From Gammaproteobacteria bacterium (GTDB lineage Bacteria; Pseudomonadota; Gammaproteobacteria; Arenicellales; Poriferihabitantaceae), in NCBI GenBank assembly GCA_009839585.1, contig VXPI01000296.1:1-21277 (forward strand): a DNA stretch of 21,277 nucleotides, in the 5' to 3' direction. The notes beneath the pieces were generated by a model. The model had not been told where the DNA came from, did no database searches, and saw only the letters and a program-made list of their open reading frames with translations. The translations under genes were made by a program, and so were the position numbers. Within the stretch, counting starts at the first letter, position 1; the number at the start of each line of letters is the position of its first letter. This document shows positions 660 through 16,991 of the stretch, one piece after another.

Positions 660-1115
660 TCATTGCCGCAGATCCCCGTCTAGAAGCACATACCGCTTTT
701 GACGAAATTGAACTGCATCAACATATCCTGCCGTCCGGAAGCTGTTGAACGTTTGGGTAACGCCCTCCTGCTTTCCTTCCAGTTGATCCGGAACACCAGC
801 TTGCCCAGGCGTCCGTTGCCGTCCGCGCTGTCGAACACGTAGATCAAGGAATTCCCGTCTTTCCGGGCATCCAGCAGCACGGCCTTCGGCTCGGTGATGA
901 TCTCCGGGATCCGCTCGATGTCGGTCCATGGCAGCCTCTGTCCGCGTTTTTCCTTCAGCTCCCTCCATACATGATCGATCTCGTTTTCCTCGTGAACAGG
1001 ACCGCGCTGTCCAGACGGTAGTCCTGGTCAACGAGGGTTCCCTGGATTTCCGGCGTAACCACCCCGGTCGGAAACTGGTTTCCTGCCTGTTTCGTTCAGC
1101 CACAAAGGGCTATCT
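660..1115 (-). pseudogene. Frameshifted remnant resembling a phage MuF-type / PBECR nuclease-like C-terminal domain
   Basis: No single frame codes for the whole protein, but three minus-strand frames join into one plausible domain. About 1090-966 gives TPEIQGTLVDQDYRLDSAVLF; about 1000-760 in another frame gives LPWTDIERIPEIITEP, then KAVLLDARK and LVFRINWK; about 760-660 in a third gives VTQTFNSFRTAGYVDAVQF and RYVLLDG. The order LDS..LF, then W..I..IPEII..P.AVLLD, then LIYVFD, LVF.INWK and TAGYV matches, from memory, the nuclease-like domains (phage-Barnase-EndoU-ColicinE5/D-RelE superfamily) at the C-terminus of Mu gpF-like head proteins. At least two frame changes and the missing N-terminal head-morphogenesis part make it a pseudogene. 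It ends in the AT-rich junction before the regulator. The family call is tentative; the broken coding is clear. Confidence 0.5.
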
Positions 1116-1211
1116 CTTTGTAACTCCCCGATTCATATTGAAAAGCATGACTGCTTGGCGCCGATAGGGAAGTGATCGGTTAAAAAACATTAATAATCAA
1201 TTTATTACTTG

Positions 1212-1239
1212 TTCAGCAATCCAACAACCCGCTGTTGAA
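1212..1239. repeat. Imperfect inverted repeat in the AT-rich junction
   Basis: TTCAGCA at 1212-1218 pairs with TGTTGAA at 1233-1239 (seven pairs, one G-U). It lies between the mobile remnant and the regulator promoter. It might be the end of a transcript or an operator half. Nothing else in 1120-1250 looks like a gene. Confidence 0.25.
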
Positions 1240-1253
1240 TGGGTGAGGATAAA

Positions 1254-1272
1254 AATATTTCCGAAATATTGC
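1254..1272 (+). promoter_or_regulatory. Operator-like palindrome, copy 1
   Basis: AATATTTC-C-GAAATATT is a perfect 17-bp palindrome with one central base (1254-1270), followed by GC. It overlaps the expected -35 position (1259-1264) of the promoter whose -10 is at 1282-1287. The next copy starts exactly 40 bp downstream. Its position just before a LacI-family gene suggests autoregulation by that protein (inference). Confidence 0.6.
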
Positions 1273-1287
1273 GCAAAAATATATAAT
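1259..1287 (+). promoter_or_regulatory. Candidate promoter of the LacI-family regulator
   Basis: A consensus TATAAT -10 box is at 1282-1287. Seventeen bases upstream lies TTCCGA (1259-1264), a weak -35 match embedded in operator copy 1. Transcription would begin near 1294, at the left edge of operator copy 2, so both palindromes are placed to block polymerase. The leader to the TTG start would be about 87 nt and contains a hairpin at 1311-1335. Confidence 0.5.
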
Positions 1288-1293
1288 TGTGGT

Positions 1294-1312
1294 AATATTT
1301 CCGAAATTTTGC
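1294..1312 (+). promoter_or_regulatory. Operator-like palindrome, copy 2
   Basis: AATATTTCCGAAATTTTGC matches copy 1 in 18 of 19 positions; a single T for A change makes the palindrome imperfect. Start-to-start spacing from copy 1 is 40 bp, close to four helical turns, which would put both sites on about the same DNA face. It overlaps the predicted transcription start. Confidence 0.6.
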
Positions 1313-1335
1313 AGAAAGATGAAACTGCTTTCTGC
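1311..1335 (+). repeat. 8-bp hairpin in the regulator leader
   Basis: GCAGAAAG (1311-1318) and CTTTCTGC (1328-1335) form a perfect 8-bp stem with a 9-nt loop. It lies in the predicted untranslated leader, 45 nt before the TTG start. There is no following T-run, so it is not a standard terminator; a role in transcript stability or translation is possible. Confidence 0.35.
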
Positions 1336-1380
1336 CTGAATTGTCGATTCAGCATGTCATTTATTTGAGGATTAGCAGGA

Positions 1381-2421
1381 TTGTCAGAACGAATTACACT
1401 GCGAAATATCGCAGATGCTGCAGGAGTTTCCGAATCTACAGCCTCACGAGCACTTGCGGGAAGCGGTCAGCTTGCTGACTCAACGCGCAGCAAGATTATG
1501 GATGCTGCAGACAGGCTCGGGTACCAAAGTCCAAGTCGAAAGATTCAGTTAAGCCAAACGGCATCGTTTGACCGTAGGGGGATTGTTGGGGTTGTTGTAG
1601 CGGCTTTACACAATTCCTTTTATCCCTATCTGGTTGATCGGTTGCATGACGAACTTGATGATCTGGGGTTCGACATGGTGCTCATTATTGACGAGGTAAC
1701 TCGCGATAGAGCAAGTCGAAAATTACGAAGCCTAATTGACACATTGGATGGAGTGGTCGTGACTACAGCAACAATTGGCTCGCCTATGGTGGAATTTCTG
1801 AAAGATAGCCAAAAACCAACAGTACTCGCGATCCGATCAAACATGAGGGATAACGTTCCCGTTACCGAGAGCGACAATTTCATGGCAGGCGTCGAGGCAC
1901 TCCGACACCTGGTTTCTCTAGGGCATCGGCGGATCGGGTTCTTGATGGGTCCAGATACTACTTCAACCACGATAGGGCGACTCAAAGGTGCAAAGTCCGT
2001 TTTGCACGATTGCGGTATTGAACTGGATGAGCGCCTGCTATTTCACACTGAATTTACTCACGAAGGCGGGTATTCAGCATGTATGCAGCTGTTACGGCTG
2101 TCTTCTCCTCCAACCGCCATGTTCTGTGCCAATGATGTGATTGCGGTGGGTGCTCTGGAAGCAACTCAAAAAATGGGGTTGCGTGTTCCGCAGGATATTT
2201 CGGTAATTGGCGTCGATGACATCCCCATGGAAAGTTGGGAGATGATTTCTCTAACAACAATCCGTCAACCGATCGGAGAAATCGGCAGTATGGCGGCAAA
2301 ACTCATTTCTGAAGCCATCAGAAAGGGCTCTATCAGCCAGCCAAAGAACTACATCTTTCCTACCAGTTTGGTAGTGCGCTCAACAACAGGACCTGTTTCA
2401 GGTGGTGAAAAAGCCGAGTAA
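1381..2421 (+). CDS. LacI/PurR-family transcriptional regulator
   Basis: 346 aa, the usual length for a LacI-family repressor. Residues about 5-50 form the helix-turn-helix and hinge (ITLRNIADAAGVSESTASRAL, then LGYQ); the remainder is a periplasmic-binding-protein-like effector domain with typical segments GIVGVVVAALHNSFYPYLV, HLVSLGHRRIGFLMGP, AMFCANDVIAVGAL and ISVIGVDDIPMESW. The start must be TTG at 1381: an in-frame TGA lies at 1366-1368, no ATG or GTG lies between, and the DNA-binding domain begins within five residues. GAGGA at 1367-1371 supplies the ribosome site. It lies directly before, and in the direction of, the ThDP enzyme and importer genes, so it most likely senses the imported compound or a product of it. 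The twin palindromes upstream suggest it controls its own promoter. The effector is unknown. Confidence 0.93.
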   Translation: MSERITLRNIADAAGVSESTASRALAGSGQLADSTRSKIMDAADRLGYQSPSRKIQLSQTASFDRRGIVGVVVAALHNSFYPYLVDRLHDELDDLGFDMVLIIDEVTRDRASRKLRSLIDTLDGVVVTTATIGSPMVEFLKDSQKPTVLAIRSNMRDNVPVTESDNFMAGVEALRHLVSLGHRRIGFLMGPDTTSTTIGRLKGAKSVLHDCGIELDERLLFHTEFTHEGGYSACMQLLRLSSPPTAMFCANDVIAVGALEATQKMGLRVPQDISVIGVDDIPMESWEMISLTTIRQPIGEIGSMAAKLISEAIRKGSISQPKNYIFPTSLVVRSTTGPVSGGEKAE

Positions 2422-2458
2422 ATGAAACTCCACGTGAAGAACAAACGTGAGAATTCCT

Positions 2459-2471
2459 TAACCATTGGTTA
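2459..2471. promoter_or_regulatory. Small perfect palindrome upstream of the ThDP gene
   Basis: TAACCA-T-TGGTTA (2459-2471) is a perfect odd palindrome ending 5 bases before the AGAGGT ribosome site of the next gene. Its sequence differs from the two AATATTTC palindromes, so it may be a site for another factor or chance. Confidence 0.25.
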
Positions 2472-2490
2472 TTTATAGAGGTAATTGAAT

Positions 2491-4353
2491 ATGAAAACGG
2501 TCGGTCACCTTATCGGGCGCACCCTCAAGGCATATGGCATTCCTTATGTCACGGGAATCCCCGGACACGGTAATTGGAATCTAATTGATGCATTTAACGA
2601 TCCGGGTTCGGATATTCCGGTTGTTCAGGTAATGCACGAACAAGCGGCTGTTCATATTGCAGATGCTCACTTTCGAGTAACCGGTCATCTGCTTGCAAGC
2701 TGCACTTCCATTGGTCCGGGCGCAACGAACACGATTATGGCATTGGCCAATGCCTACTGTGATTCGACATCCCTGTTATTGATCACGGGGGCATCTTCAA
2801 CGCATATGCGTGGTCATGGCGTAATGCAGGAGCTTGATCGTGAAAATACGCCAGACTTCACCAAGGTCACAGAACATGTCACCAAGCGCAATTTTGACAT
2901 GATAACCGCAGATAGTGCGCCGTTTATTTTGCATCGTGCCTTCAATTCGATGATGACCGGTCGTCCCGGACCCGTGCATGTCAACATTCCCCTTGATGTT
3001 CAATCGGCCGAAACGGACATTGAGTATCAAGAATTGTCTAAGCGTATGCCAACTGGCCGCCAGCGGGCGGATAGCCTGGCAATTGAGCAAGCTATCCAGC
3101 TTCTATTGAAGGCCGAGCGTCCCTGTATAGTGGCCGGAGGTGGAGCGATTACCTCAAATGCCAGTACTCAACTAAGGCGGGTGGTTGAGCGGCTGGGCAT
3201 TCCAGTCGTATTTACCTGGAATGGCAAGGGTTGTTTACCCGAAGATCATCCGATGAATGCCGGAACCGTAGGCTGGCCAGGTAGTTTGACTGGCAATACC
3301 ATGGCGAAAGAGGCCGATGTGGTGATGTCTCTGGGTTGCAAATTCACCGATTGGTCATCTTCATCCTGGAGAAAAGGAGTAAGTTTCTCTATTCCGGAAA
3401 GCAAGTTGATTCACGTGGATATCGATCCACGCGAGATTGGCAAGAACTACCCGGTGGAAGTAGGTATTGTTGCCGATATTGCTCTTGCATTGGAGGATCT
3501 CGACGCCGGAATTTCAGACGATCAGGCACAAAAGTCCTATCAGCGGCGAACACTCCAGCACGACGGTTTGGTCAAGCTCTGGGCTGAATTTAATCGACTC
3601 ATGGAGCCGCGACGTTCCCATCACAAGATTCCAACCACGATGTTGACCACACTACGGGAATTGCGCAAGGTTCTGCCTCGTAACGGAATAGTGACCGTGG
3701 GGTCGGGTCATCCTCAGAGTTCTACCAAGCAGGATTTTCCGGTTTACGAGCCTCGTACTCATATCACCCCAGGCAGTTATTCGCCCATGGGGTTTGCGCT
3801 ACCTGCAGCCATTGCAGCCAAGCTTGCCAAACCTGAATCTCCAGTAGTGTGCATTATTGGGGATGGTGATTTCATGATGTGCGTACAGGAACTTGCAACC
3901 TGTGTTGCATATGACATTGCGGTCGTATTTTTAATACTGAATAACGCAGGCTATATCTCTATTCGAGATGGGCAGGACGCACTCATGGGCCGAAACATCA
4001 TGTCAGAGTTTTCTTTGCCAGGAGACACTAATGAACCCTATTCAGTGCAGTTTCCGGCATTGGCCAAATCCTTCGGTGTGGATTTCGCAACTCAGGTCCA
4101 GAGCGTTGATGAAATCGGCACGTCCATCAAGGCGGCACTGGCTAGCGGGGGGCCGGCACTCGTGGAAGTTCCGATCACAAGGGATGTCAGCATTGCCGCG
4201 GCGAATGTTGTGGGATGGTGGGATTTTCCTCCAGTTCCAACTGCACCCCAGGCAGTGCTTGATGATTATGCCGCTGGATTTGAATCCGAACAGCATCAAG
4301 GTCGCGACACGTCAAATGTCGATCTTGTTAATGCCGAGGGTGCTGTCGGCTGA
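2491..4353 (+). CDS. ThDP-dependent enzyme, acetolactate synthase large-subunit type, substrate unknown
   Basis: 620 aa from ATG 2491, chosen over an in-frame TTG at 2485 because AGAGGT (2477-2482) sits 8 nt before it. The three-domain layout of ThDP enzymes is clear. The N-terminal pyrimidine-binding domain has the cofactor-activating glutamate in VMHEQAA (Glu-50) and GPGATNTIMALANAY. The middle domain includes IVAGGGAI and VDIDPREIG. The C-terminal diphosphate-binding domain has the Mg/ThDP motif from GDG (457-459) to NN (484-485). It resembles acetolactate synthase more than sulfoacetaldehyde acetyltransferase or IolD. No small regulatory ilvN/H subunit follows, so a biosynthetic role is unlikely. 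The C-terminus runs about 40 residues past the core. Lying between a LacI regulator and an importer, it probably acts in catabolism, cleaving or condensing a 2-oxo acid or aldehyde; the substrate is inference only. Confidence 0.88.
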   Translation: MKTVGHLIGRTLKAYGIPYVTGIPGHGNWNLIDAFNDPGSDIPVVQVMHEQAAVHIADAHFRVTGHLLASCTSIGPGATNTIMALANAYCDSTSLLLITGASSTHMRGHGVMQELDRENTPDFTKVTEHVTKRNFDMITADSAPFILHRAFNSMMTGRPGPVHVNIPLDVQSAETDIEYQELSKRMPTGRQRADSLAIEQAIQLLLKAERPCIVAGGGAITSNASTQLRRVVERLGIPVVFTWNGKGCLPEDHPMNAGTVGWPGSLTGNTMAKEADVVMSLGCKFTDWSSSSWRKGVSFSIPESKLIHVDIDPREIGKNYPVEVGIVADIALALEDLDAGISDDQAQKSYQRRTLQHDGLVKLWAEFNRLMEPRRSHHKIPTTMLTTLRELRKVLPRNGIVTVGSGHPQSSTKQDFPVYEPRTHITPGSYSPMGFALPAAIAAKLAKPESPVVCIIGDGDFMMCVQELATCVAYDIAVVFLILNNAGYISIRDGQDALMGRNIMSEFSLPGDTNEPYSVQFPALAKSFGVDFATQVQSVDEIGTSIKAALASGGPALVEVPITRDVSIAAANVVGWWDFPPVPTAPQAVLDDYAAGFESEQHQGRDTSNVDLVNAEGAVG

Positions 4354-4410
4354 ACACCCAAATACTAAAACAAGATTTTTTCAAACCAAAAACATATAGG
4401 AGAATTTACG

Positions 4411-5544
4411 ATGAAACAATTTTTCAGAACTTTGCTGTTTGGAGTAGCCATTGGGGTCGCTCCGGTAATGACCATGGCTGATGGCTATGATGGACTTCCA
4501 CGAACTTTCCTGTGGAACCCGAACTTCAATGAAGTCATTGACACGTCCAGTTATGCTGGCGATGGCCCATTCACGATTGGTTTTTCAAACGCCTCTCAAG
4601 GAGATGGCTGGTTAGGCACATTCTATCACTCTGTTCAATACGGGGTATCGGAGAACCTGGACAAAATAGGCCGGTTCATTGTTACCGATGCAAACGGTGA
4701 TCCGACCAAACAAATTTCCGATATTCAGGATTTGCTAGAGCAGGGAATTGACTTGCTACTGGTCAATCCAGCTACCGCTGATGCACTTGACCCGATCCTG
4801 GGCCGCACGATGCGCCGCGGCGTACCGGTAGTTACCGTGGCTCGTCGTGTAGAAAGCGACAGCAGTTTTGTCAGTTTTGTTACTGCGTCCGATACTGCGT
4901 TAGCCAGAATGAGTGCTACCTGGATGGCTGAAACGCTTAACGGCAAGGGTCGCGTTGTCCTGTTGCCAGGTCTTGCGGGTGCCAGTCCTGCAGAGATGCG
5001 ATTGCAGGCTGCCAAGGAAGTGTTTGCACAGTTTCCCGGCATTGAGATTATTGACACACAATATACCGGGTGGAGTCCTGCGAACGGCCGGCAAATCATG
5101 GCGGCAATCATTCAAAGAGAAGGTGCCGGCAATATTGATGGGGTCTGGGCGGATTCTGGACTTCAGGGTTCAGGTTCTGTTGAAGCATTTATTGGAGCAG
5201 GGGTTACGGGTGCTGACATCCCTCCCCATACCGGAGGAGATTTGAATGGCATGTATCAACTCGCTCATGAAAACGGATTTCCATTCGCTGGAATTGATTA
5301 TACCCCTTCGATTGGCGCTGCTGCCGTGCACCTTTCGGTGGATGTTCTGGAAGGTACTCCTGTACCGCAAAGGCTGGATGTGAATTTCCAGGTAGTCATC
5401 TCCCCCGGACATGAAACGCGTTCGATATCTGCAGATGTTCTGTTGCCCGATTATGTGGCGATGGACCGACCAGGTGAATTAATCATGGGTAGCGGAATTC
5501 CGGACTATGACCCAACCAGCTTCTCAGTTGAACTGCCAAACTAA
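4411..5544 (+). CDS. Periplasmic substrate-binding protein of a ribose-type ABC importer
   Basis: 377 aa with a clear signal peptide (residues 1-23, cleavage likely after TMA before DGYDG), hence periplasmic. The fold is that of the type-I sugar-binding proteins (RbsB-like, Peripla_BP_4): the first strand FTIGFSNASQGDGW is followed by a helix, then DPTKQISDIQDLLEQGIDLLLVNP, GVPVVTVARRV, GKGRVVLLPG and AAVHLSVDVLEGTPVP. AGGAGA at 4398-4403 is a strong ribosome site 7 nt before the ATG. It follows the ThDP gene by 57 nt and is followed by a strong terminator, the usual way to make more binding protein than membrane components. The ligand cannot be read from sequence; this class binds sugars, polyols, AI-2-like and other small polar compounds. 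Confidence 0.9.
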   Translation: MKQFFRTLLFGVAIGVAPVMTMADGYDGLPRTFLWNPNFNEVIDTSSYAGDGPFTIGFSNASQGDGWLGTFYHSVQYGVSENLDKIGRFIVTDANGDPTKQISDIQDLLEQGIDLLLVNPATADALDPILGRTMRRGVPVVTVARRVESDSSFVSFVTASDTALARMSATWMAETLNGKGRVVLLPGLAGASPAEMRLQAAKEVFAQFPGIEIIDTQYTGWSPANGRQIMAAIIQREGAGNIDGVWADSGLQGSGSVEAFIGAGVTGADIPPHTGGDLNGMYQLAHENGFPFAGIDYTPSIGAAAVHLSVDVLEGTPVPQRLDVNFQVVISPGHETRSISADVLLPDYVAMDRPGELIMGSGIPDYDPTSFSVELPN

Positions 5545-5591
5545 TTGAAGAGCAACAAAAAATAGTCGGTTGCTTTCTTTTGTTGGTGTTT

Positions 5592-5637
5592 GGGCATAAA
5601 CTGTGGATTACTTCCTCCGCAGTTTATGCCCTTTTTT
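5592..5637 (+). terminator. Strong intrinsic terminator between binding protein and importer genes
   Basis: GGGCATAAACTG (5592-5603) pairs perfectly over 12 bp with CAGTTTATGCCC (5620-5631), followed by six T residues. It lies 47 bases after the binding-protein stop codon. Read-through would supply the lower amount of ATPase and permease transcript. Confidence 0.88.
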
Positions 5638-5811
5638 CCGCCAACTGCTTTTGGTCCCGTTTCTTGAGTTGCCTAGGGGATTCTGAACCACTAAATCGTT
5701 TGCGCGTTTCAAAGTGGCCCGAAGGCAAGGAGTAAGCGCAAGAATCCAGTAACGACCAGATTCACATGAGTTGGTGCTTTTTATCGGCCTTTGAAATCAA
5801 ATGGGCACACA
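5638..5811. other. Intergenic stretch without a recognisable gene
   Basis: No coding frame with a ribosome site and no convincing -35/-10 pair was seen between the terminator and the ATPase. The importer ATPase therefore depends on read-through or on a promoter of a kind I cannot recognise by eye. Confidence 0.4.
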
Positions 5812-7320
5812 ATGATCAGGCTTGATGGTATCAGCAAGATCTTCCCCGGTGTCAAATCACTGGATAACGTCACTTTTGAATCTGTAGCTGGTGAAGTTCA
5901 CGCATTGCTTGGCGAGAACGGAGCGGGCAAGTCGACGCTGATCAAGACTGTCTCAGGTGCATATATCCCGGATGAAGGCACGATCCATTTCGACGGAAAG
6001 AAACGCAAGTGGAACTCTCCAAAGGAAGCCAAGGATGCGGGCATACATATTATTTACCAGGAGCTTGTACTGTTTCACGAACTATCGGTGGCTGAAAATA
6101 TATTCATTGGGAAGGCCCCGCTTACGCGTTTTGGAACTATTGACTACAAGACCATGTATGAACGAGCGGATGAAATCCTTGATCGATTAGGCCATCATAT
6201 AAACGTACAGGCACTGGTTAAAAGCCTCAGCGTTGCAGACCAGCAGATGGTGGAAATCGCCAAGGCACTTGTCGGGGAGACAAAATTGCTGGTGCTTGAT
6301 GAGCCAACCGCAGTGATTTCAGGCCGTGAGGCCGAGCTTCTGTTCGAGCGAATCAAGCTGTTGCGGGATGAGGGGGTATGTATCATTTATATTTCACATC
6401 GGTTGGAGGAGATATTTTCGATTGCCGATCGGGTGACTGTGCTCAAAGACGGGCAACTTGTTGGTACCCGGAGTATTGAAGAGCTGGACCGCGATCAATT
6501 GGTCGGGATGATGGTGGGGCGCGAGTTGAAGGATATCTTTCCTCCCAAACGAATACCTTCCCTAGAGGCTGCCCCTGTCTTGACCGTCCGCAATTTATGT
6601 GCCCTGCCTAAGGTCAGGGATGTTTCGTTCGATCTGCATGCCGGTGAAATCCTGGGGATTGCCGGGTTGGTAGGGGCTGGGCGCTCTGAAGTGGCACATG
6701 CAGTGTTTGGCTCAATACCGCGGTCATCGGGTACGGTATCTTTAGGTTCCGAGGACTTTAACACACCCTCACCACGCGCGTCCATTGATCGAGGGCTCGG
6801 GTTCTTGACTGAAGATCGCAAGGAAGAGGGTCTGATGATGTTGCTTGATACATCAGCGAACATCTCGGCTCCTGTCTTGCCAGAGTTCACCACGGCTACA
6901 GGTCTTGATCGGGCACATGAAATTCAGGTTGCCAGGGATGAGATTGACCGCTTTCGAATTGCAGTACCGGGCCCCGAAAGTGGTGTGAGTAAACTCTCAG
7001 GAGGCAATCAACAGAAAGTACTGTTTGGACGTTGGACGAGGGCATGTCGAAGAGTGTTGATTCTTGATGAGCCAACGCGGGGTATTGATGTCGGCGCCAA
7101 AGTTGAAATCTACGAAATTATCCGCCAACTGGCTGATGATGGTTTAGGCATCCTGCTGATCTCGTCCGAACTTCCGGAAATCGTTGGACTCTGCACTCGC
7201 GTTTTAGTAATGCGGGAAGGATTTGTTACTGGTGAAGTAGAAGGCTCCCGGATTGTTGAGGAAACAATCATGAGGTACGCTACTGCCGAGAGAGAAAGCG
7301 CGGCACTTGATGTTGCCTAG
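5812..7320 (+). CDS. Ribose-type ABC importer, dual ATPase (RbsA/XylG-like)
   Basis: 502 aa from ATG 5812; an in-frame TTG at 5791 would add seven residues, and neither has a strong ribosome site. Two fused ABC domains are plain. Domain 1 has Walker A GENGAGKST, Q-loop YQELVLFHELSVAENIF, a variant signature LSVADQQMVEIAKAL and Walker B LLVLDEPTAV. Domain 2 has the degenerate Walker A GLVGAGRSE typical of RbsA/MglA proteins, then signature LSGGNQQKV and RVLILDEPTRGIDVGAK. The protein would hydrolyse ATP at the inner face of the membrane to drive the two permeases that follow 11 nt downstream. Length and the degenerate second P-loop match the carbohydrate-uptake family 2 of ABC importers. Confidence 0.95.
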   Translation: MIRLDGISKIFPGVKSLDNVTFESVAGEVHALLGENGAGKSTLIKTVSGAYIPDEGTIHFDGKKRKWNSPKEAKDAGIHIIYQELVLFHELSVAENIFIGKAPLTRFGTIDYKTMYERADEILDRLGHHINVQALVKSLSVADQQMVEIAKALVGETKLLVLDEPTAVISGREAELLFERIKLLRDEGVCIIYISHRLEEIFSIADRVTVLKDGQLVGTRSIEELDRDQLVGMMVGRELKDIFPPKRIPSLEAAPVLTVRNLCALPKVRDVSFDLHAGEILGIAGLVGAGRSEVAHAVFGSIPRSSGTVSLGSEDFNTPSPRASIDRGLGFLTEDRKEEGLMMLLDTSANISAPVLPEFTTATGLDRAHEIQVARDEIDRFRIAVPGPESGVSKLSGGNQQKVLFGRWTRACRRVLILDEPTRGIDVGAKVEIYEIIRQLADDGLGILLISSELPEIVGLCTRVLVMREGFVTGEVEGSRIVEETIMRYATAERESAALDVA

Positions 7321-7331
7321 GTATTGATCAA

Positions 7332-8294
7332 ATGGCGTACTCGAAATCAAGATACCTGGTCCGGCGTTTGCAGCTGGACCCTTCCCTGATCATCGTGATA
7401 TTGCTTTTGGCTATCGTGGTCATTTCAGGTTTTGTCCTGAGTGATCGCTTCGGAACCACGCGTAATTTCATGAATGTGCTGGAACAGTCTTCCGGTCTGG
7501 GTTTTGCCAGCATTGGACAGGCCATGGTGGTTATTGTAGGAGGCATTGACCTGTCAATCGGAGCAGTGGTAACTGCATCGACCATTTTTATGGCGGCAAT
7601 AGTTGACCTGCATCCAGGGCTCATGATTCCCATGATTTTTGGCACGCTATTGTTTGGCGCCATGATCGGATTCTGTAATGGGTATATAACCATAAAGACG
7701 GGCGTGCATCCGTTGATCGTAACGTTGGGTACAGCGTCAATCCTTAATGGCTCAGTCCTTATCTATACACTGCAGCCAACGGGTGGCGTACCCTATTGGT
7801 TTGAGGAATTCGCTTATGGCCGGATCTGGAATGTGCCAATTTCCGGTTTGGTGATGCTTCTGTGTTTTGCCCTAGTATGGCTGTTCTTGCGCTATTTTCA
7901 GGCTGGGCGTGCTTTTTATGCGGTAGGCGGAAATCCTGAGGCAGCACGCCTGAGTGGCATCCAGTCAAACCGGATCATTTTACTGGCGTATTCAGCGAGT
8001 GGCTTTTTTGCGGCGCTGGCAGGCGTTTACTTTGTGAGCCGGACCGGGGTTGGGGATCCGCGTATAGGCGACCCGATAACCCTGGCTTCAATTACCCCAG
8101 TGATTATTGGCGGACTGATTCTAGGCGGGGGGAAAGGGAATGTCCTAGGCGTGTTGTTAGGCGTCATCTTGATTTCGTTACTGAGCAACCTGTTGAATTA
8201 CATGAATATATCGACATTTATTCAATGGGTCATTCAGGGCGTCATTATCATCATTGCGGTCTCAGTTTATGTGCATAAAGGGAAAAAACTGTGA
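7332..8294 (+). CDS. Ribose-type ABC importer permease 1 (RbsC-like)
   Basis: 320 aa, inner-membrane protein with about eight to ten hydrophobic segments. The family signature GGIDLSIGAVV is present early (usual form GGIDLSVGS), with NGYITIKTGVHPLIVTLGTASI, GGNPEAARLSGI and GGKGNVLGVLLGVILISLL in the expected order. The start ATG at 7332 lies 11 nt after the ATPase stop. Its TGA overlaps the GTG of the second permease (GTGA at 8291-8294), so the two are translated together and probably form the heterodimeric pore. Confidence 0.94.
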   Translation: MAYSKSRYLVRRLQLDPSLIIVILLLAIVVISGFVLSDRFGTTRNFMNVLEQSSGLGFASIGQAMVVIVGGIDLSIGAVVTASTIFMAAIVDLHPGLMIPMIFGTLLFGAMIGFCNGYITIKTGVHPLIVTLGTASILNGSVLIYTLQPTGGVPYWFEEFAYGRIWNVPISGLVMLLCFALVWLFLRYFQAGRAFYAVGGNPEAARLSGIQSNRIILLAYSASGFFAALAGVYFVSRTGVGDPRIGDPITLASITPVIIGGLILGGGKGNVLGVLLGVILISLLSNLLNYMNISTFIQWVIQGVIIIIAVSVYVHKGKKL

Positions 8295-9259
8295 GTGAAG
8301 CTGCCGTAAATCCATCCGAGGGTATCTCGAAAATATTCAGACAGCCTGGACGGTTCATTGTACCGTTGTCGCTAGTGTTACTGGTTGGTACTGCGACGCT
8401 CCTGCAGCCCTCTTTCCTCTCCATTAATAATATTCAGGATATTTTGACGCAAGCTGCGCCTTTGGCGCTGGTCGTGCTCGGACAGGCATTCGTTATCCTT
8501 GTTCGGGGGCTTGACCTGTCCGTGGCTTCGCTGATGGCCAGTGCTGCGGTTCTGGCCACGGCCTTTAACGCAACTTCTGACGCGATGATCCCCGTGATTT
8601 TTCTGGTCACCATTGTAGTTTCTGCTGGTGTGGGACTGATCAACGGATTGCTGGTTACAAAGCGCAATGTCTCGCCATTTCTTGCGACACTGGCGATGAT
8701 GATTGTCTTGCAGGGAATCCGTTTCTACTACACCCAGGGTGCACCATCGGGATCTTTACCTGAAGGATTCCGCGTTCTTGGTGCCGGACGCCTTGCCGGA
8801 ATTCCGGTCAATATGCTGGTGTTTTTCTTTTTTTTCTGCATTCTGGGCTGGCTACTGCATAAATCAAGTTTCGGACGCAAGATCTACATTACCGGTGGCA
8901 ACCCGAAATCCGCCAATCTCGTCGGAATTCATGCTGATCGCGTGACCATCATCTGTTACGTGATTTGTTCCGTTATGGCGGGCATCGCCGGACTTTTCCT
9001 GGTGGGATTTGTCGGTACGGTTGATAATTGGGTTGGACGAGGCTATGAGCTCGATGCTATCGTTGCCTGCGTCCTGGGCGGAATTATGTTAACGGGAGGA
9101 AAGGGCACTTTATGGGGTGCTGCTACTGGTGCCTTGATCCTCATCCTGATTTTTAATATTGTGATTATTCTGGGCTTGCCGGTCCAGGCACAGTTGATCA
9201 TCAAGGGCATCATAATCATTTTTGTTGCCGGCCTTTTTTCGAGATCAACACAGACTTGA
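8291..9259 (+). CDS. Ribose-type ABC importer permease 2 (RbsC-like)
   Basis: 322 aa from GTG 8291, overlapping the stop of permease 1 by four bases. Multiple membrane spans, with the paralogous signature RGLDLSVASLMA, then NGLLVTKRNVSPFLATLAMM, GGNPKSANLVGI and GGKGTLWGAATGALILILIF. The two permeases share the same motif order, as expected of paralogues forming a heterodimeric channel. Many ribose-type systems use one permease as a homodimer; a pair is a common variant in importers for polyols, AI-2 and erythritol-like compounds. Followed after 29 nt by the HisD-like dehydrogenase. Confidence 0.93.
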   Translation: MSEAAVNPSEGISKIFRQPGRFIVPLSLVLLVGTATLLQPSFLSINNIQDILTQAAPLALVVLGQAFVILVRGLDLSVASLMASAAVLATAFNATSDAMIPVIFLVTIVVSAGVGLINGLLVTKRNVSPFLATLAMMIVLQGIRFYYTQGAPSGSLPEGFRVLGAGRLAGIPVNMLVFFFFFCILGWLLHKSSFGRKIYITGGNPKSANLVGIHADRVTIICYVICSVMAGIAGLFLVGFVGTVDNWVGRGYELDAIVACVLGGIMLTGGKGTLWGAATGALILILIFNIVIILGLPVQAQLIIKGIIIIFVAGLFSRSTQT

Positions 9260-9288
9260 AAGACAATCACAAACAATAGGAGAAAAGC

Positions 9289-10620
9289 ATGGGAATACAT
9301 TATCTCAAACAGAGTAAACCCGCTGATGAACGGGCAATGGATGATGCCAGGATCCGTTCAGTGGTTGAAAAGACCCTTCACGAGATTGAGGAGTCCGGTG
9401 ATCAGGCGGTCCGCAATTTGAGCGAGAAGTTCGACAATTACTCGCCTTCCTCCTTCCGCCTGACTGACAGCGAGATTGAGGCAATTACGTCCAGGGTTTC
9501 GGCAAGTGAAATGACGGATATTCAGTTTGCACATGATCAGGTTGTCAGATTTGCCCAGGCACAACGTGATTCAATGCTTGACATCGAGATTGAAACTCTG
9601 CCCGGTGTAATTTTGGGACACCGAAACATCCCGGTGCAGTCGGTTGGCTGTTATGTGCCGGGTGGCAAGTTTCCGATGGTTGCTTCGGCCCATATGTCGG
9701 TAGCAACTGCCAAGGTTGCACAGGTACCGCGTATTGTGGCTGCAACTCCACCATTTAACGGCGAGCCGAATCCTGCCGTGATTGCCGCCATGAAAATGGG
9801 CGGAGCCCATGAAATCCATGTATTGGGAGGTATTCAGGCGATTGGTGCCATGGCGATTGGAACAGAAACGATCGACCCCGTGCATATGCTGGTTGGTCCG
9901 GGCAATGCTTTCGTGGCTGAAGCCAAGCGACAGCTGTATGGGCGAGTTGGCATTGATCTTTTTGCCGGCCCGACAGAAACGATGGTGATTGCAGATGAAA
10001 CCAGTGCAGATGCTGAACTTTGTGCTACGGACTTGCTCGGACAGGCGGAGCATGGATATAACAGTCCATGTGTATTGCTGACAAACTCGCATCGACTGGC
10101 CCGGGATACTCTGGGGGAAATAGAACGGATTCTTGCCATTCTGCCAACGGCTGATACGGCACGTGCAAGCTGGGACCACTACGGAGAAGTGATCGTTTGC
10201 GATACATACGAAGAAATGCTGGAAGTTGCCAATGAAATCGCCAGCGAACATGTTCAGGTAATGACAGATCGTGATGAGTGGTTTCTGGAGAATATGCATA
10301 GCTATGGTGCGCTATTCCTTGGGCCACGCACAAATGTGGCAAATGGCGATAAAGTGATCGGTACCAATCACACCCTGCCAACCAGGAAAGCAGGTCGGTA
10401 TACAGGTGGATTGTGGGTCGGCAAATACATAAAGACCCACAGTTATCAGAGAATCATGACGGATGAGGCGGCAACACTGGTAGGTGAATACGGATCACGG
10501 CTTTGTCTATTGGAAGGTTTTGTGGGTCATGCGGAACAGTGCAATGTCAGAGTGCGTCGTTACGGACATATCGACCTGCCTTATGGTGAAGGCGCCCCTC
10601 GTGCTGATACCGCAGGGTAG
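9289..10620 (+). CDS. HisD-family NAD-dependent alcohol dehydrogenase, HpsN (sulfopropanediol 3-dehydrogenase)-like
   Basis: 443 aa with an AGGAGA site (9278-9283) 5 nt before the ATG. It belongs to the histidinol dehydrogenase fold, and every key residue is visible: zinc ligands Gln-252 and His-255 (LLGQAEHG), Asp-354 ([10 protein letters not shown]) and His-414 (EGFVGHAEQ), and the catalytic pair Glu-320/His-321 (IASEHVQVM). The [27 protein letters not shown] and [14 protein letters not shown] segments resemble, from memory, the HpsN branch, which oxidises (R)-2,3-dihydroxypropane-1-sulfonate to sulfolactate with two NAD+, rather than true HisD. There are no his genes nearby, and the gene follows an importer, so a catabolic four-electron oxidation of an imported primary alcohol is likely. 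The exact substrate is not proven: no sulfolactate-processing gene (SuyAB, Xsc, ComDE) is in the window. Confidence 0.82.
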
Positions 10621-10679
10621 GTTCAGGTCTTTAGTCTGTATTCAAGCGAATTCGTGGTGGCCCGGGGTAGGACAAGCGG

Positions 10680-11138
10680 ATGTTCCCTGAATTTGAAACT
10701 ACGGTAAAACCGGAGTGGATAGACTACAACGGCCATATGCGTGACTCGAATTATGGCTTGGTTTTTAGTCTGGCAGTCGATGCTCTGCAGGACGCAGTAG
10801 GACTTGATGCAACCTATCGAGAGCGAACAGGGTGCACGATCTATCTTCTGGAAGACCATAAATTCTATCTGAGGGAAGTGAAACAGGGTGATCGATTACG
10901 GGTCCTGACTCACGTGCTTGGAGTCGATGACAAGCGGTTTCACCTCTACATGGTTATGAAAAGAGACCAGGTAGAGGTATGTATTGGCGAGTTTATGGAA
11001 ATGCATGTGCGGCAACACCCATCACCGCATGGCATTTCCATGCCCCGGGAAATTCGAGAGCGCTTGATGGCTTATCACAAAAATGTAGAGAAAAGATCAC
11101 CACCATTTCGCCGGTCGCGCCAAATTCGATCAATATAG
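10680..11138 (+). CDS. Hotdog-fold acyl-CoA thioesterase, copy 1
   Basis: 152 aa of the 4HBT-like hotdog family. The active-site motif is near the N-terminus: EWIDYNGHMRDSNY with Asp-15 and His-19, the pattern of thioesterases that include betainyl-CoA thioesterase of carnitine breakdown. The remaining family features follow: a central hydrophobic helix, GCTIYLLEDHKFYLREVKQGD, and a strand pair ending in IGEFMEMHV. It would hydrolyse a CoA ester in the cytoplasm. It starts 59 nt after the HisD-like gene with only a weak ribosome site. The second copy lies some 260 nt further on. The CoA ester is unknown; the likeness to betainyl-CoA thioesterase is a family resemblance, not a substrate assignment. 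Confidence 0.8.
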   Translation: MFPEFETTVKPEWIDYNGHMRDSNYGLVFSLAVDALQDAVGLDATYRERTGCTIYLLEDHKFYLREVKQGDRLRVLTHVLGVDDKRFHLYMVMKRDQVEVCIGEFMEMHVRQHPSPHGISMPREIRERLMAYHKNVEKRSPPFRRSRQIRSI

Positions 11139-11380
11139 ACCACGACAATTCGCCAGCTTTGCGTCTGGGTATGATCCGCCTTTCTTTCTTGCTTGCCGGA
11201 CAAACATCCTGGTTGTGCTGTTTGGTGTACAGGGTTTCGTTCTGGAATGAGATTTGCCGGCCTTTCTACAGGCAGTAGAAGTCCCCAAACAAGGCGTTAA
11301 AAAATTCAGTGCCTGAATCCAGTCCAGTGCCTATACAATAATCCGTTCATTTCACAGGACAGGGAATTGCGTTCTTGTTC
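11139..11380. other. Gap between the two thioesterase genes
   Basis: About 240 bases without a supported gene. There is a short AT-rich stretch near 11300 and a TATACA/TACAAT-like element at 11332-11339 that could be a -10, but no -35 at a proper distance was found. No terminator hairpin with a T-run was seen. Confidence 0.35.
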
Positions 11381-11386
11381 AGGAGG
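11381..11386 (+). promoter_or_regulatory. AGGAGG ribosome binding site that sets a TTG start
   Basis: A perfect Shine-Dalgarno AGGAGG lies inside the longest open frame, whose first possible start is 11375. The only in-frame start codon at proper distance downstream is TTG at 11396, 9 nt away. This rules out the longer version. Confidence 0.7.
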
Positions 11387-11395
11387 ATTGACTTC

Positions 11396-11851
11396 TTGAC
11401 GCTATTGAATCTTCATAACGAGCCGGTAAGAGAGGAGTGGCTGGATGCTTACGGTCATCTTAATGAAGCGTATTATCTGGTTCCATTCAGTAACGCCACC
11501 TGGGTTCTCCAGGAGCATTTCGGTATCGGGGTGCCCTATTTTGAGGAAACAGGGTGTGCGATTTATACCGTAGAAACACACCTGCGATACTTGAAGGAAG
11601 TCCGGTTTCCAGCAATCCTGCATATTGAGAGCATGATTCTCGGTGTAGAATCCCGCAAGATCTGGTTCACCCACCGCATGCTGGTCAATGATGAGGAATG
11701 CGCAACCGGAGAATTCATGACTCTTCACTTTGATACACGGGATGGCCGGGTTAGCCCGATGCACAAGACGGTCATTGAGCATCTTCAATCATCGATTATC
11801 GATCCCTTCCCCAACTGGGTCGGGCGAAAGATAAAGCTCAAGCAAGACTAG
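11396..11851 (+). CDS. Hotdog-fold acyl-CoA thioesterase, copy 2
   Basis: 151 aa from TTG 11396, chosen because AGGAGG at 11381-11386 precedes it. The active-site motif EEWLDAYGHLNEAYY carries Asp-17 and His-21, the same positions as in copy 1. The two proteins share the order D.YGH, F-rich helix, TGC.IY..E.H.-YL.EV, SRKIWFTHRML, and a final GEFM.(L/M)H strand, so they are diverged paralogues. Copy 2 has an additional C-terminal tail (DPFPNWVGRKIKL). It most likely hydrolyses a related but different CoA ester, or forms a mixed oligomer with copy 1. A 162-nt gap follows before the LivK-type binding protein. Confidence 0.8.
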   Translation: MTLLNLHNEPVREEWLDAYGHLNEAYYLVPFSNATWVLQEHFGIGVPYFEETGCAIYTVETHLRYLKEVRFPAILHIESMILGVESRKIWFTHRMLVNDEECATGEFMTLHFDTRDGRVSPMHKTVIEHLQSSIIDPFPNWVGRKIKLKQD

Positions 11852-11924
11852 CCTTTCTGCGTTCAGGACCATGAGCTTAAAGAAAAATTAACCCCTGCCT
11901 GCCCGACTCCTGGCAAAAAATAGA

Positions 11925-11930
11925 TATAAT
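11925..11930 (+). promoter_or_regulatory. Candidate -10 box before the Liv-type importer
   Basis: A consensus TATAAT lies 84 bases before the next start codon within an AT-rich stretch. The bases 17-18 upstream (about 11901-11907, GCCCGAC) are a poor -35, so any promoter here would probably need an activator. The rest of 11852-12013 shows no gene. Confidence 0.35.
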
Positions 11931-12013
11931 CACCCGAAATATAAATCTGGGATTCCCGTCTTCATCATCAGGACTGGGATGAACAAGCACCAACATACAT
12001 GAGGTTATAACGA

Positions 12014-13240
12014 ATGAAGAAGAGTCGTCTACTGGGATTTTTGCTTGGCAGCATCTGCTTGCTGTTTGGTCAAGGCAGTTTCGCTATGGATTGCGATGAA
12101 ATCGTTTTGGGAGCAGCCATCTCCCTGACTGGGAAATATGCCACCAACGGTGTACATGCCCAAAATGGCTATGAGTTCGCCATCCAGAAAATTTCCGAAC
12201 ATGGCGGAATAAAAATCGGTGACAAATGCTACAACTTCCGTGTTATCTACTACGATGACGAGTCCAAGGGCGATCGGGGTGCTACCCTTGCAGAGCGTCT
12301 GATCAATCAGGATGGCGTTCAGTACATGCTTGGGCCCTATTCGTCAGGTCTAACCAAGGCGATCGCCCCGGTCACGGAAAAATACCAGATTCCAATGGTT
12401 GAGGCAGAAGGGGCTTCGCGCTCTTTGTTCACGCAAGGCTATCGCTATCTGTTTGCCGTGTTGTCGACTTCGGAGCAGTATCTGGCTTCGGCAATCACCC
12501 TGGCCGCGGAGAAAGCCGAGGAGACCGGTAAGAGTCCGTCAGATGTCCGGGTTGCCATAGCGGTCGAAAACGATCCGTTTTCACTGGATATCCGGGCAGG
12601 TGTTCTGGAAGATGCCGCGAAATACAACATGCAGGTTGTGGTTGACGAAAAACTTCCGCGTGACCTGTCTGACATGAGTGCAATTCTCACCAAGGTCAAG
12701 CTGGTCAAGCCGGACGTGCTGGTAGTGAGTGGGCACTCCAAGGGAGCTGCCACGGCAGTCCGACAGATCGAGGAGCAAAATGTCAAAGTTCCGATGATTG
12801 CAATCACCCACTGCGAAGCAGCGGATGTGGTCGGTAATTTCGGAGATGCGGCGAACGATATCCTGTGCTCGACGCAATGGGCGGAAACCCTGAGTTACAG
12901 CGATTCGATTTTTGGAACCGCAGCCGAGTATGAGCAAGAGTTCAAGGCAGCCTATCCGGAGTATGCTGAAAAGACGGTTCCTTACCAGACCGCTCAGGCC
13001 TCTGCTGCAGTCTATGTCTTCAAGGATGCGTTCGAGCGCGCTGGATCACTGGACAAGGAAGCGGTGCGAGACGCGATCGCCGAGACTGACCTATCAACAT
13101 TCTATGGTCAAATCCAGTTTTCTGAAGCCGGAAACAACATCGCCAAGCCAATGGTGCTCCGACAAATTCAGGACGGTAAATACAATGTGGTCGCGCCTTC
13201 CGAATTTGCTTCGCATCAATTGAACTGGCCCCGGGGCTGA
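12014..13240 (+). CDS. LivK-type periplasmic substrate-binding protein
   Basis: 408 aa with a signal peptide (MKKSRLLGFLLGSICLLF, cleavage likely after GSFA) and the Peripla_BP_6 fold of leucine-type binding proteins: IVLGAAISLTGKYA, NGYEFAIQKI, VIYYDDESKGDRGATLAERLI, GVQYMLGPYSSGLTKAIAPV, KPDVLVVSGHSKGAATAVRQI and SAAVYVFKDAFERAG. GAGGT at 12001-12005 precedes the ATG by 8-9 nt. Mature-protein cysteines in MDCDEI, DKCYNF, THCEAAD and DILCSTQ could form disulfides. The family includes binders of branched-chain amino acids, amides, urea and aromatic acids, so the ligand is undetermined. Permease and ATPase genes follow at once. Confidence 0.92.
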   Translation: MKKSRLLGFLLGSICLLFGQGSFAMDCDEIVLGAAISLTGKYATNGVHAQNGYEFAIQKISEHGGIKIGDKCYNFRVIYYDDESKGDRGATLAERLINQDGVQYMLGPYSSGLTKAIAPVTEKYQIPMVEAEGASRSLFTQGYRYLFAVLSTSEQYLASAITLAAEKAEETGKSPSDVRVAIAVENDPFSLDIRAGVLEDAAKYNMQVVVDEKLPRDLSDMSAILTKVKLVKPDVLVVSGHSKGAATAVRQIEEQNVKVPMIAITHCEAADVVGNFGDAANDILCSTQWAETLSYSDSIFGTAAEYEQEFKAAYPEYAEKTVPYQTAQASAAVYVFKDAFERAGSLDKEAVRDAIAETDLSTFYGQIQFSEAGNNIAKPMVLRQIQDGKYNVVAPSEFASHQLNWPRG

Positions 13241-13257
13241 TACACTTCTGAATGATT

Positions 13258-13293
13258 AACAGGCCGGAATGGATTTCACCGCTCCGGCCTGTT
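13258..13293 (+). terminator. GC-rich hairpin between LivK-type and LivH-type genes
   Basis: AACAGGCCGGA (13258-13268) pairs perfectly over 11 bp with TCCGGCCTGTT (13283-13293), with a 14-nt loop. Only four T residues follow (GGTTTTG), so it may be a partial terminator or a hairpin that stabilises the binding-protein mRNA. Either would raise binding protein over membrane components. Confidence 0.6.
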
Positions 13294-13322
13294 GGTTTTG
13301 AGGAGACAATTCTTCCCTGACC

Positions 13323-14234
13323 ATGGACCAGATTCTGTTTAATCTGTCCCTGCTTGGCGAATATCCGATCGTCAACCTGAAGATCGTTATCGATGGGATA
13401 ATGATCGGGGCCTTGTTTGCTCTGGCGGCTTATGGTCTGGCACTGGTCTGGGGCGTGATGAATGTAAAAAATCTTGCTCAAGGCGATTTTGTGATTGCGG
13501 GTGGCTATGTCTCATGGTGGCTTGCCAAGTATGGAGTCCACCCCTTGCTGGGCGTGCCCGCTGCATTTATCGTGATGTGGGGGGTCGGCTGGATTGCCTA
13601 TAAACTGGTCATATCCAGGGTGGTTGAGAAAGATTTGTTCACATCGCTTCTTGCTACCTTTGGTATCGCGATCATGATGGCCCAGATCCTGAACCTGCTG
13701 TTTGGCTCTGATACCCAAAGCATCAAGCTCGATTACGACACCCTGTATTTCTTTGATGGATTCATTGATGTGCCGATTGCCAAGCTGCTTGGCGTGTTAC
13801 TGGCCGCAACCCTGGCCGCATGTGTCATTATCTTCATGAAGTCCAGCCGCATGGGGCAGGCCATTCGGGCTACTGCGCAGGATGCCCGTGCAGCCCGTGT
13901 ACTGGGTATCGATACGGAAAAAGTCTATGCTTTTACCTTCTCGCTGAATTCAGCGATCTGCGGGGCAGCAGGAGCCATTGTCGTAATGGTCTGGGTGATT
14001 CAGCCATTTTACGGCATTACCCATTCCATTCGGGCTTTCGTGATCGTAACTGCAGCCGGTTTGGGGAATCTGCCCGGGGTAATTGCAGCCGGATTGGGCA
14101 TTGGTGCCCTTGAACAGTACGGATCGCATATATTCGGGATTGGCTATCAGCAGGCTATAGCCGTGATGTTATTACTGGCCGTATTGCTGTTCCGCCTGAT
14201 TCAGCAACGGAGAGTCAGAAAGAGTCTGCAATAG
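13323..14234 (+). CDS. Branched-chain amino acid-type ABC permease (LivH-like)
   Basis: 303 aa, about eight membrane spans. LivH signatures are visible: GIMIGALFALAAYGLALVWG, LAQGDFVIAGGYV, VISRVVEKDLFTSLLATFGI, SSRMGQAIRATAQDARAARVLGI and GLGNLPGVIAAGLGIGALE. ATG 13323 is used; the AGGAG site at 13301-13305 is rather far (17 nt), and an in-frame CTG at 13317 is an alternative. It follows the hairpin after the binding protein and stops 8 nt before the LivM-like gene. It would be one half of the transport channel in the inner membrane. Confidence 0.92.
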   Translation: MDQILFNLSLLGEYPIVNLKIVIDGIMIGALFALAAYGLALVWGVMNVKNLAQGDFVIAGGYVSWWLAKYGVHPLLGVPAAFIVMWGVGWIAYKLVISRVVEKDLFTSLLATFGIAIMMAQILNLLFGSDTQSIKLDYDTLYFFDGFIDVPIAKLLGVLLAATLAACVIIFMKSSRMGQAIRATAQDARAARVLGIDTEKVYAFTFSLNSAICGAAGAIVVMVWVIQPFYGITHSIRAFVIVTAAGLGNLPGVIAAGLGIGALEQYGSHIFGIGYQQAIAVMLLLAVLLFRLIQQRRVRKSLQ

Positions 14235-14242
14235 GTCTGTCC

Positions 14243-15292
14243 ATGAAGAGCGGAAAATTAATTCTCTACACGGTAGCGGCGCTGTTTACACTGTTGGCGC
14301 CGTTTATCATGCCGGACTTCAAGACCCAGCTGGCAACCCTTTGGCTCATGATTATCGTCGCCCTGACCTGGGACATGACCGGCGGACAGATGGGGTACAA
14401 CTCACTTGGGAACATCTTTTTTTATGGCACCGGCATGTATGTCGCAGCGGTCATCTGTATTGCCCTGACCCACGATGTGGGGTCCTATACCAATGCCTTT
14501 AGCGATCAGGTCTATGTGTTCAGCAACGCCGAATACTTCACCGGCGTCATGATCGGCATCCTCGGTGCCGGGGTGTTTTGCTCGGCCTGTGCATTGATTA
14601 TCGGGTACCTGACCTTTGGTCTGAGAGGACCTTATTTTGCGATTGGAACTCTGGGCGTGGCCATCGCAGCAGGGGAACTGGTCTCCAATTGGGATTGGGT
14701 CGGTGGAGGGCAGGGTATTTCATTACCGGTCTTCCCTTATGATCTGGAGTACGGCAAGATATTTTTCTACGCTCTTTTTGCTGCAACAGGCGTGTTGTTG
14801 TTCATCTTCCTGAGATGGTTCTATACCACTCGTTTTGGAGCGGCGATCAATGCAATCAGGGATGACGAGGAAAAAGCCGAAGCCATGGGCATCCACACCC
14901 TCCGCTATAAACTGACTACGTGGTCGATTGCCGCGTTTTTCATAGGTGTTGTTGGTGGAATCTCGGCATTTCAGCTGATTCATTTCGAGCCATTGGAAAC
15001 GGCCTACCAGACAATCAACCTCGGAATCTTCATGGTCGTTTGTGTACTCCTGGGTGGCAAGGGCACACTGTGGGGTCCGGTTATCGGTGCGATTGTCTTC
15101 CATTTGTTCAAGGAAGTGACTTGGAACTACTTGCTGGGATGGCAGTGGGTTGCCTTGGGGGCATTGATCGTAATCACCGTAGTGTATTTTCGAGATGGCA
15201 TCATGGGATGGTTGATGAGTGTCAAACCCGAGTGGTTCGGAATCAGGGTTGAGAAAAAATCCGGGGATGCCATGCGGGAAGCTGGCACATGA
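14243..15292 (+). CDS. Branched-chain amino acid-type ABC permease (LivM-like)
   Basis: 349 aa inner-membrane protein with about eight to nine spans. Family landmarks: TWDMTGGQMGYNSLGNIFFYGTG (the usual form has SLGHAAFFGIGAY), LRGPYFAIGTLGVAIAAGEL, GGGQGISLP, FGAAINAIRDDEEKAEAMGI and GGKGTLWGPVIGAIVF. The EAMGI segment is the coupling loop that contacts the ATPase. It starts 8 nt after the LivH-like stop, and its own TGA overlaps the ATG of the LivG-like gene (ATGA at 15289-15292), so translation is coupled. A long insertion around residues 76-97 (HDVGSYTNAFSDQVYVFSN) may be a periplasmic loop. Confidence 0.92.
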   Translation: MKSGKLILYTVAALFTLLAPFIMPDFKTQLATLWLMIIVALTWDMTGGQMGYNSLGNIFFYGTGMYVAAVICIALTHDVGSYTNAFSDQVYVFSNAEYFTGVMIGILGAGVFCSACALIIGYLTFGLRGPYFAIGTLGVAIAAGELVSNWDWVGGGQGISLPVFPYDLEYGKIFFYALFAATGVLLFIFLRWFYTTRFGAAINAIRDDEEKAEAMGIHTLRYKLTTWSIAAFFIGVVGGISAFQLIHFEPLETAYQTINLGIFMVVCVLLGGKGTLWGPVIGAIVFHLFKEVTWNYLLGWQWVALGALIVITVVYFRDGIMGWLMSVKPEWFGIRVEKKSGDAMREAGT

Positions 15293-16934: not shown

Positions 16935-16991
16935 GTCGGTAGCCCAATCAATGATCTAGATCCATAAACCACAAAAGCAGGGAATGTTGTC

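Follow-up and report, generated by a model that had tools for sequence, protein, structure and literature searches.

Introduction

Two described types of PF00815 dehydrogenase, HpsN and HisD, can be told apart by a short pocket motif: according to passages of PMC11382572, G-R-Y-A/S-H, whose His126 is in contact with the sulfonate group, identifies HpsN, and G-S-A-P-L identifies HisD. Here we analyze a gene cluster in which a dehydrogenase of this fold stands with a thiamine diphosphate (ThDP)-dependent enzyme, located on a 21,277-nucleotide contig (VXPI01000296.1; C251 of the genome GCA_009839585.1, which is 75.6% complete) of a gammaproteobacterium of the order Arenicellales; this whole stretch is referred to as the window. 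Open reading frame (ORF) calling and hmmscan recovered the cluster described in the original prediction, namely a LacI-family repressor, the ThDP enzyme, a ribose-type importer, the PF00815 dehydrogenase and two PF13279 proteins, all on the plus strand. Likewise as described, the scan of 19 window ORFs gave no match to a family of kinases, sugar isomerases or aldolases. The dehydrogenase falls into a clade apart from both HisD and HpsN, and its linkage to the ThDP enzyme recurs across phyla; the pathway they belong to is likely to be real and probably undescribed.

Results

A third clade of HisD/HpsN-type dehydrogenases

The dehydrogenase gene (9289..10620, plus strand; PF00815, 430.7 bits), one of the two core genes of the cluster, encodes a protein for which the closest matches among solved structures are sulfopropanediol 3-dehydrogenase and (R)-2,3-dihydroxypropane-1-sulfonate (DHPS) dehydrogenase, followed by HisD. 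In a 48-row tree built without duplicate loci and without the contig-end fragment of locus L032, the protein was placed within a third clade of 37 rows (support 99/92), which is sister to seven HpsN-type rows (100/98) and apart from four HisD rows (100/100). The enzyme had been predicted to be distinct from biosynthetic HisD, which the tree confirms while placing it outside HpsN as well. Where HpsN has G-R-Y-A/S-H, the window protein has G-K-F-P-M, and the third clade follows the pattern G-[KR]-[FY]-P-[ML] and then ASAH. The position of His126 is occupied by Met or Leu in all 37 third-clade rows and by His in all seven HpsN rows; the four HisD rows have Tyr (three) or Leu (one) there, so Leu alone does not separate the third clade from HisD. 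A His five places after the motif position (in ASAH) is found in 36 of the 37 third-clade rows, L008 having Gln instead.

The window protein and all 37 rows retain the zinc ligands and the catalytic residues Glu318, His319 and Asp352. These residues are shared with HpsN, a member of the same fold family at 44-48% identity, as is the GDK motif, whose Lys353 contacts the sulfonate in HpsN. HisD also shares the PF00815 fold and the catalytic and zinc residues, but it lies at 32-36% identity in another clade, its four rows have GDY instead of GDK, and no his genes adjoin the window gene. From the kept catalytic and zinc residues together with the altered motif, the window protein is very probably functional as an NAD/Zn dehydrogenase of the four-electron type whose pocket is of a third kind; its substrate would not be histidinol and is most likely not sulfopropanediol.

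Three PF00815 genes are present in the window's genome; that on contig C397 groups with HisD and that on C153 with HpsN. The organism may use DHPS through the separate C153 locus (L002), where the gene adjoins a short-chain dehydrogenase/reductase (SDR) gene resembling that of another HpsN-type locus. Of the 19 related genomes searched, 10 hold a copy at 44-48% identity in addition to one at 63% identity at least, a count made by identity, motif aside. The C153 copy bears on the explanation that the cluster serves DHPS catabolism, with the dehydrogenase acting as HpsN and the ThDP enzyme replacing Xsc. HpsN is the nearest solved relative, databases label the homologues sulfopropanediol 3-dehydrogenase, and Lys353 is retained; however, Met stands for His126, the copy of the HpsN clade lies elsewhere in the genome, the ThDP enzyme scores 274 bits on the Xsc model NF005713 against a cut-off of 620, and no sulfonate-cleavage gene was matched in the window. 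We consider DHPS catabolism by this cluster very unlikely. Public records call third-clade-level proteins histidinol dehydrogenase or sulfopropanediol 3-dehydrogenase; judged from the motif and the tree, both names are probably wrong, and the potential for DHPS cycling may therefore be overcounted in metagenomes.

A ThDP enzyme outside the acetohydroxyacid synthases

The second core gene encodes the ThDP enzyme (2491..4353, plus strand; PF02776, PF00205 and PF02775). Its ORF opens at TTG 2485, and ATG 2491 is the likelier start because most of its relatives, among the 120 listed, are 618-622 residues long. The best named models were acetolactate synthases, matched far below cut-off (372 bits against 866, and 370 against 538 for TIGR00118). 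The original name for the enzyme, acetolactate-synthase-like, thus stands as the label of the nearest model only, and not as a placement. In a 45-row tree without duplicates and without the fragments of L037, the ThDP family lay outside the acetohydroxyacid synthases (AHAS; E. coli IlvI and the genome's own C110) and joined IolD and a haloarchaeal protein (98/99). The join with IolD recurred (98/96) in a reduced 23-row tree, which additionally lacked own_C101, own_C360, the second L028 protein, L014, L066 and half of the family. The approximately unbiased (AU) test rejected a clade of the family with AHAS (p 0.005) and one with AHAS and Gcl (p 0.023), in agreement with the proposal that the enzyme branches outside anabolic IlvB. 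With acetolactate synthase (IlvB/IlvI) it shares the domain order and the activating Glu; it differs in having 31% identity to E. coli IlvI and MQE in place of the FQE of AHAS. In glyoxylate carboligase (Gcl), Val replaces the activating Glu; the window enzyme has the Glu (MHEQ), and the E. coli Gcl row reads RHVE.

The likeness to IolD, the ring-opening trihydroxycyclohexane-dione hydrolase, comprises, besides the two groupings, a SxGPG-, [VL]MQ- and NNxGY-like pattern common to the ThDP family. On the other side, the enzyme has about 25-28% identity to IolD and reaches 273.8 bits on the IolD model TIGR04377, against a cut-off of 715. Moreover, the join may be artefactual, given the great length of the IolD branch and a warning by the program that long branches are being joined, and the monophyly of the ThDP family with respect to IolD is weak (64/40 in the reduced tree). 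Because of the long branch and the weak monophyly, we describe the enzyme as leaning to IolD by sequence, with no membership implied. BbmA was the nearest solved chain. A predicted structure, made from a narrow alignment with a mean predicted local distance difference test score (pLDDT) of 64.3, was too poor for a fold search and was left unused.

Both trees bear on the explanation that the two genes are misplaced paralogues from biosynthesis, a surplus copy each of HisD and acetolactate synthase. The automatic names in public records say as much, and among general models those of HisD and AHAS come closest, but both enzymes lie outside the biosynthetic clades, and a HisD (C397) and an AHAS-clade gene (C110) are present elsewhere in the genome. 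We give this explanation next to no credence.

Recurrence of the enzyme pair

When genome contigs were scanned with the ThDP protein, 23 loci with identities of 67-96% were obtained. They belong to Gammaproteobacteria, Alphaproteobacteria, Aquabacterium and Acidobacteriota, the closest being a gammaproteobacterial metagenome-assembled genome (MAG; L015, 96%) and then an Arenicellales MAG (L016, 95%). The loci were picked by ThDP similarity. In 20 of the 23, a HisD-like gene lay no farther than 5.2 kb from the ThDP gene, on the same strand in all 20, at a distance of 4.7-5.2 kb with the importer in between in 13 loci and of 43-81 bp in seven; in L032 the HisD-like gene is cut by the contig end. 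Another 14 loci comprised three genome loci and 11 plasmid records, the latter hand-picked from the top of a 1643-record list and including Priestia (Bacillota) and Arthrobacter (Actinomycetota). In twelve of these, a HisD-like gene of the third clade is found at most 5.2 kb away, and in 10 of the twelve it is on the same strand. Overall, the pair is retained in 32 of the 37 loci inspected, spanning Pseudomonadota, Acidobacteriota, Bacillota and Actinomycetota, and the co-occurrence proposed from the window is therefore seen in other genomes. Since the order ThDP gene, ribose-type importer, HisD-like gene recurs in 13 of the 23 relatives, the grouping is more than chance. The pair also persists while the importer type differs, being a carbohydrate uptake transporter of family 2 (CUT2) in 13 of the 23 loci, a branched-chain amino acid (LIV)-type importer in L028 and L029 and, by annotation, a CUT1 importer in rhizobia, Thalassospira and Paracoccus.

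Carriers of the pair are found among isolate records (Aquabacterium humicola RJY3, Thalassospira marina CSC3H3, Shinella sp. HZN7 and Rhizobium etli CIAT 652), and the pair, with its non-AHAS ThDP enzyme, offers a testable entry to a carbon pathway. The titles and abstract openings of open-licence papers held no description that we recognised of the pair or of the third HisD clade, which is weak evidence of absence; PMC12772297 was rejected as a relevant paper, the GMC matches in the passages seen being a locus-tag prefix. In L037 the ThDP gene is in pieces (10001-10970), with a remnant of a substrate-binding protein (SBP) gene nearby, and the best HisD match, at 47%, belongs to the HpsN clade. 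The L083 gene (11992-13630) is annotated as two genes. These cases suggest decay of the ThDP gene in some lineages.

Importer and local regulation

The importer of the window consists of an SBP (4411..5544; PF13407, 150.8 bits), whose nearest solved chains are sugar-binding proteins, an ABC ATPase (5791..7320; two PF00005 stretches, RbsA-like at 536 bits) and two permeases (7332..8294 and 8291..9259; PF02653 in both), all on the plus strand. A PF13407 SBP, a double-domain ATPase and two PF02653 permeases together define a CUT2 sugar ABC importer, and the imported compound is probably sugar-like.

The LacI-family repressor gene (1381..2421, plus strand; PF00356 and PF13377) is preceded by two copies of an 18-bp palindromic operator candidate resembling TTCCGCAATATTTCGGAA, at 1259..1276 with one mismatch and at 1299..1316 with two; 0.04 matches would be expected in the window. 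Allowing up to three mismatches, eight of the 13 ribose-importer loci (L015, L016, L017, L019, L022 with three in tandem, L024, L025 and L026) have the palindrome upstream of either lacI or the ThDP gene. At the same threshold it was not found in L020, L021, L027 and L030, and the contig of L018 starts at lacI. Isolated matches of like quality elsewhere numbered two, in L017 and L035. A LacI homologue stands beside the ThDP gene in 12 of the 13 loci. Judging from the adjacent regulator gene and the conserved upstream site, the cluster is probably under local LacI-type regulation through this candidate operator, as had been predicted. Two further near-matches from a genome-wide pattern search of the window's genome were set aside as LacI sites because both lie inside ORFs.

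Discussion

With somewhat better than even confidence, we read the cluster as a LacI-repressed catabolic operon that combines import, NAD-dependent oxidation of a CH2OH group and ThDP-dependent C-C cleavage of a sugar-like compound, without a kinase; this reading is built only from conserved features. What is observed is the gene content, the tree placement, the residue pattern, the linkage over phyla and the common operator, and from these we infer all of the chemical steps as follows. The repressor would sit on the 18-bp palindrome before its own gene until an inducer frees the DNA, and the ribose-type importer would take up a small polyhydroxylated or keto-sugar-like compound. The third-clade HisD-type enzyme, using Zn2+ and two NAD+, would convert a primary alcohol beside a zinc-binding group directly to a carboxylate, as its conserved active site suggests. 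Either ahead of the HisD step or following it, the ThDP enzyme would act on the same carbon skeleton and split a C-C bond beside a carbonyl. The fragments would then reach central metabolism with no kinase, isomerase or aldolase supplied by the locus, and the hot-dog proteins, where present, may hydrolyse an acyl-CoA product.

Several observations weigh against this reading. The third-clade-level HisD is far commoner than the ThDP enzyme and mostly occurs without it: the ThDP family (E <= 1e-120) was found in one of 369 gammaproteobacterial genomes, the window's own, and in four of 385 alphaproteobacterial genomes, and HisD matches at the third-clade level (E <= 1e-125) in 11 and 59 of these, respectively; three of the 59 match only at 49-50% identity, and the motif check covered part of them. 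Such a HisD match is present in three of the four alphaproteobacterial genomes with the ThDP enzyme and absent from G403. Hence, from the proposed pairing of the two enzymes the linkage holds, but the dehydrogenase is not special to it (59 against 4 of the 385 genomes). In other operons, an SDR gene lies no more than 3 kb from the third-clade HisD at 30 of 41 loci (47 loci minus L148, L153, L171, L174, L175 and L044, which had no HisD after overlap filtering). Because it mostly occurs without the ThDP enzyme and with an SDR nearby, the HisD-type enzyme may serve a hub compound, to which the pair is one of several routes. Conversely, the divergent ThDP proteins of L066 (50% identity) and L014 (45%, Haloarcula) have no HisD-like gene nearby, and in L023 and L034 the ThDP gene has no adjacent HisD, a 68-69% HisD-like gene lying elsewhere in the genome. 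Each enzyme thus occurs alone, as it would if the two served separate pathways with an importer operon or an inducer in common. This explanation is set against the 43-81 bp spacing, with no importer in between, in seven loci and against the persistence of the pair over four phyla, and we regard it as improbable.

Where the ThDP enzyme is absent, the third-clade HisD often belongs to a conserved operon, seen in L038, L062, L149, L152, L157, L181, L182 and other loci. It comprises a CUT1 importer, SnoaL-like proteins, HisD, SDR, LacI, a cupin, a MetE-like protein, an alpha/beta hydrolase and RraA. Counts over the 47 HisD loci were 34 for the SDR cluster, 25 for LacI, 19 for cupin, 18 for MetE-like and 16 for RraA, and a narrow literature search found no description of this operon.

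A further point on the opposing side is that the ThDP genes of L023 and L034 lie amid CoA-transferase, enoyl-CoA hydratase and acyl-CoA dehydrogenase genes. This setting would suit a quaternary-amine or carnitine-like substrate, with the hot-dog proteins as betainyl-CoA-type thioesterases and a dihydroxy amine as the substrate of the HisD-like enzyme. Both 4HBT_2 hot-dog proteins of the window, TE1 (10680..11138) and TE2 (11375..11851; both PF13279, plus strand), match the C-terminal part of a carnitine 3-dehydrogenase model (93 and 92 bits), far below its cut-off of 592. The importer, however, is of the sugar type, and among the 23 related loci a TE1 homologue follows HisD in six and a TE2 homologue is present in one (L016), and we find a quaternary-amine substrate distinctly unlikely. 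The same counts speak against the thioesterases as part of the core cluster, which the original prediction had included. TE1, TE2 and the block of a LIV-type importer and then malate synthase G downstream of the cluster (12014-19208) are accessories or neighbours outside the core. The start of this block (its first two genes) lies at the equivalent place in L016 only, where the stretch ends, of the 23 loci. Since conservation with the pair is lacking for both blocks, the carnitine/thioesterase and malate-synthase/glyoxylate ideas were abandoned as core features. As an observation on the loci themselves, the L023 stretch (972-18930) and L034, whose ThDP homologues have 83-84% identity, also hold another ribose-type importer, Zn-ADH, GMC, DUF993 and SDR genes.

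Finally, the neighbours of the pair in other phyla are of carbohydrate type, comprising glucose-methanol-choline (GMC) enzymes, sugar isomerase-like, Gfo/Idh/MocA, GH3, lactonase-like and UxuA proteins. This speaks for the favoured reading; their absence from the window speaks against it. A comparison system is the fungal chemistry of pyranose oxidase and aldos-2-ulose dehydratase (AUDH). The likeness lies in Acidobacteria and rhizobia, where GMC enzymes and a cupin adjoin the pair; in a fold comparison of its predicted structure (pLDDT 78.8), the cupin resembles the cupin part of AUDH. The difference is that the GMC enzyme GMC_a scores 60 bits on the pyranose-oxidase model, below its 76 bits on MftG and with both far under cut-off, and that neither the cupin nor GMC_a was found in the window's genome at its 75.6% completeness, the GMC search having used one rhizobial query at E <= 1e-40, which more distant GMC enzymes would escape. 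The double-cupin family (L033:1118-1951 and homologues) counts 567 proteins, with no Pfam domain among the 120 listed.

Taken jointly with these neighbours, the ThDP-HisD pair might be the core of an undescribed phosphorylation-free carbohydrate pathway, a possibility we put forward tentatively and hold doubtful. Flavin-dependent GMC ring oxidation and the AUDH-like cupin would yield a sugar of the keto or dicarbonyl kind, a ThDP hydrolase similar to IolD would split it beside the carbonyl, and the third functional class of the HisD superfamily would convert CH2OH to a carboxylate. Marine and sponge-type bacteria would import a late intermediate directly via CUT2, and for this reason their operon would be reduced to the two core enzymes.

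Other features of the window

An AbiEi/AbiEii type IV toxin-antitoxin pair lies on the minus strand at 19472-21165. Positions 1-1100 have a higher GC content (0.58) and a strong AT skew (-0.21) compared with the rest of the window, and their two longer minus-strand ORFs matched no Pfam or PHROGs family. An Rfam search of the window gave no match at gathering scores. Within the cluster, a terminator-like hairpin with a T-run (5592..5638, plus strand) is located 3' of the SBP gene, the fold of 5585-5645 having a free energy of -31.7 kcal/mol (z -8.3).

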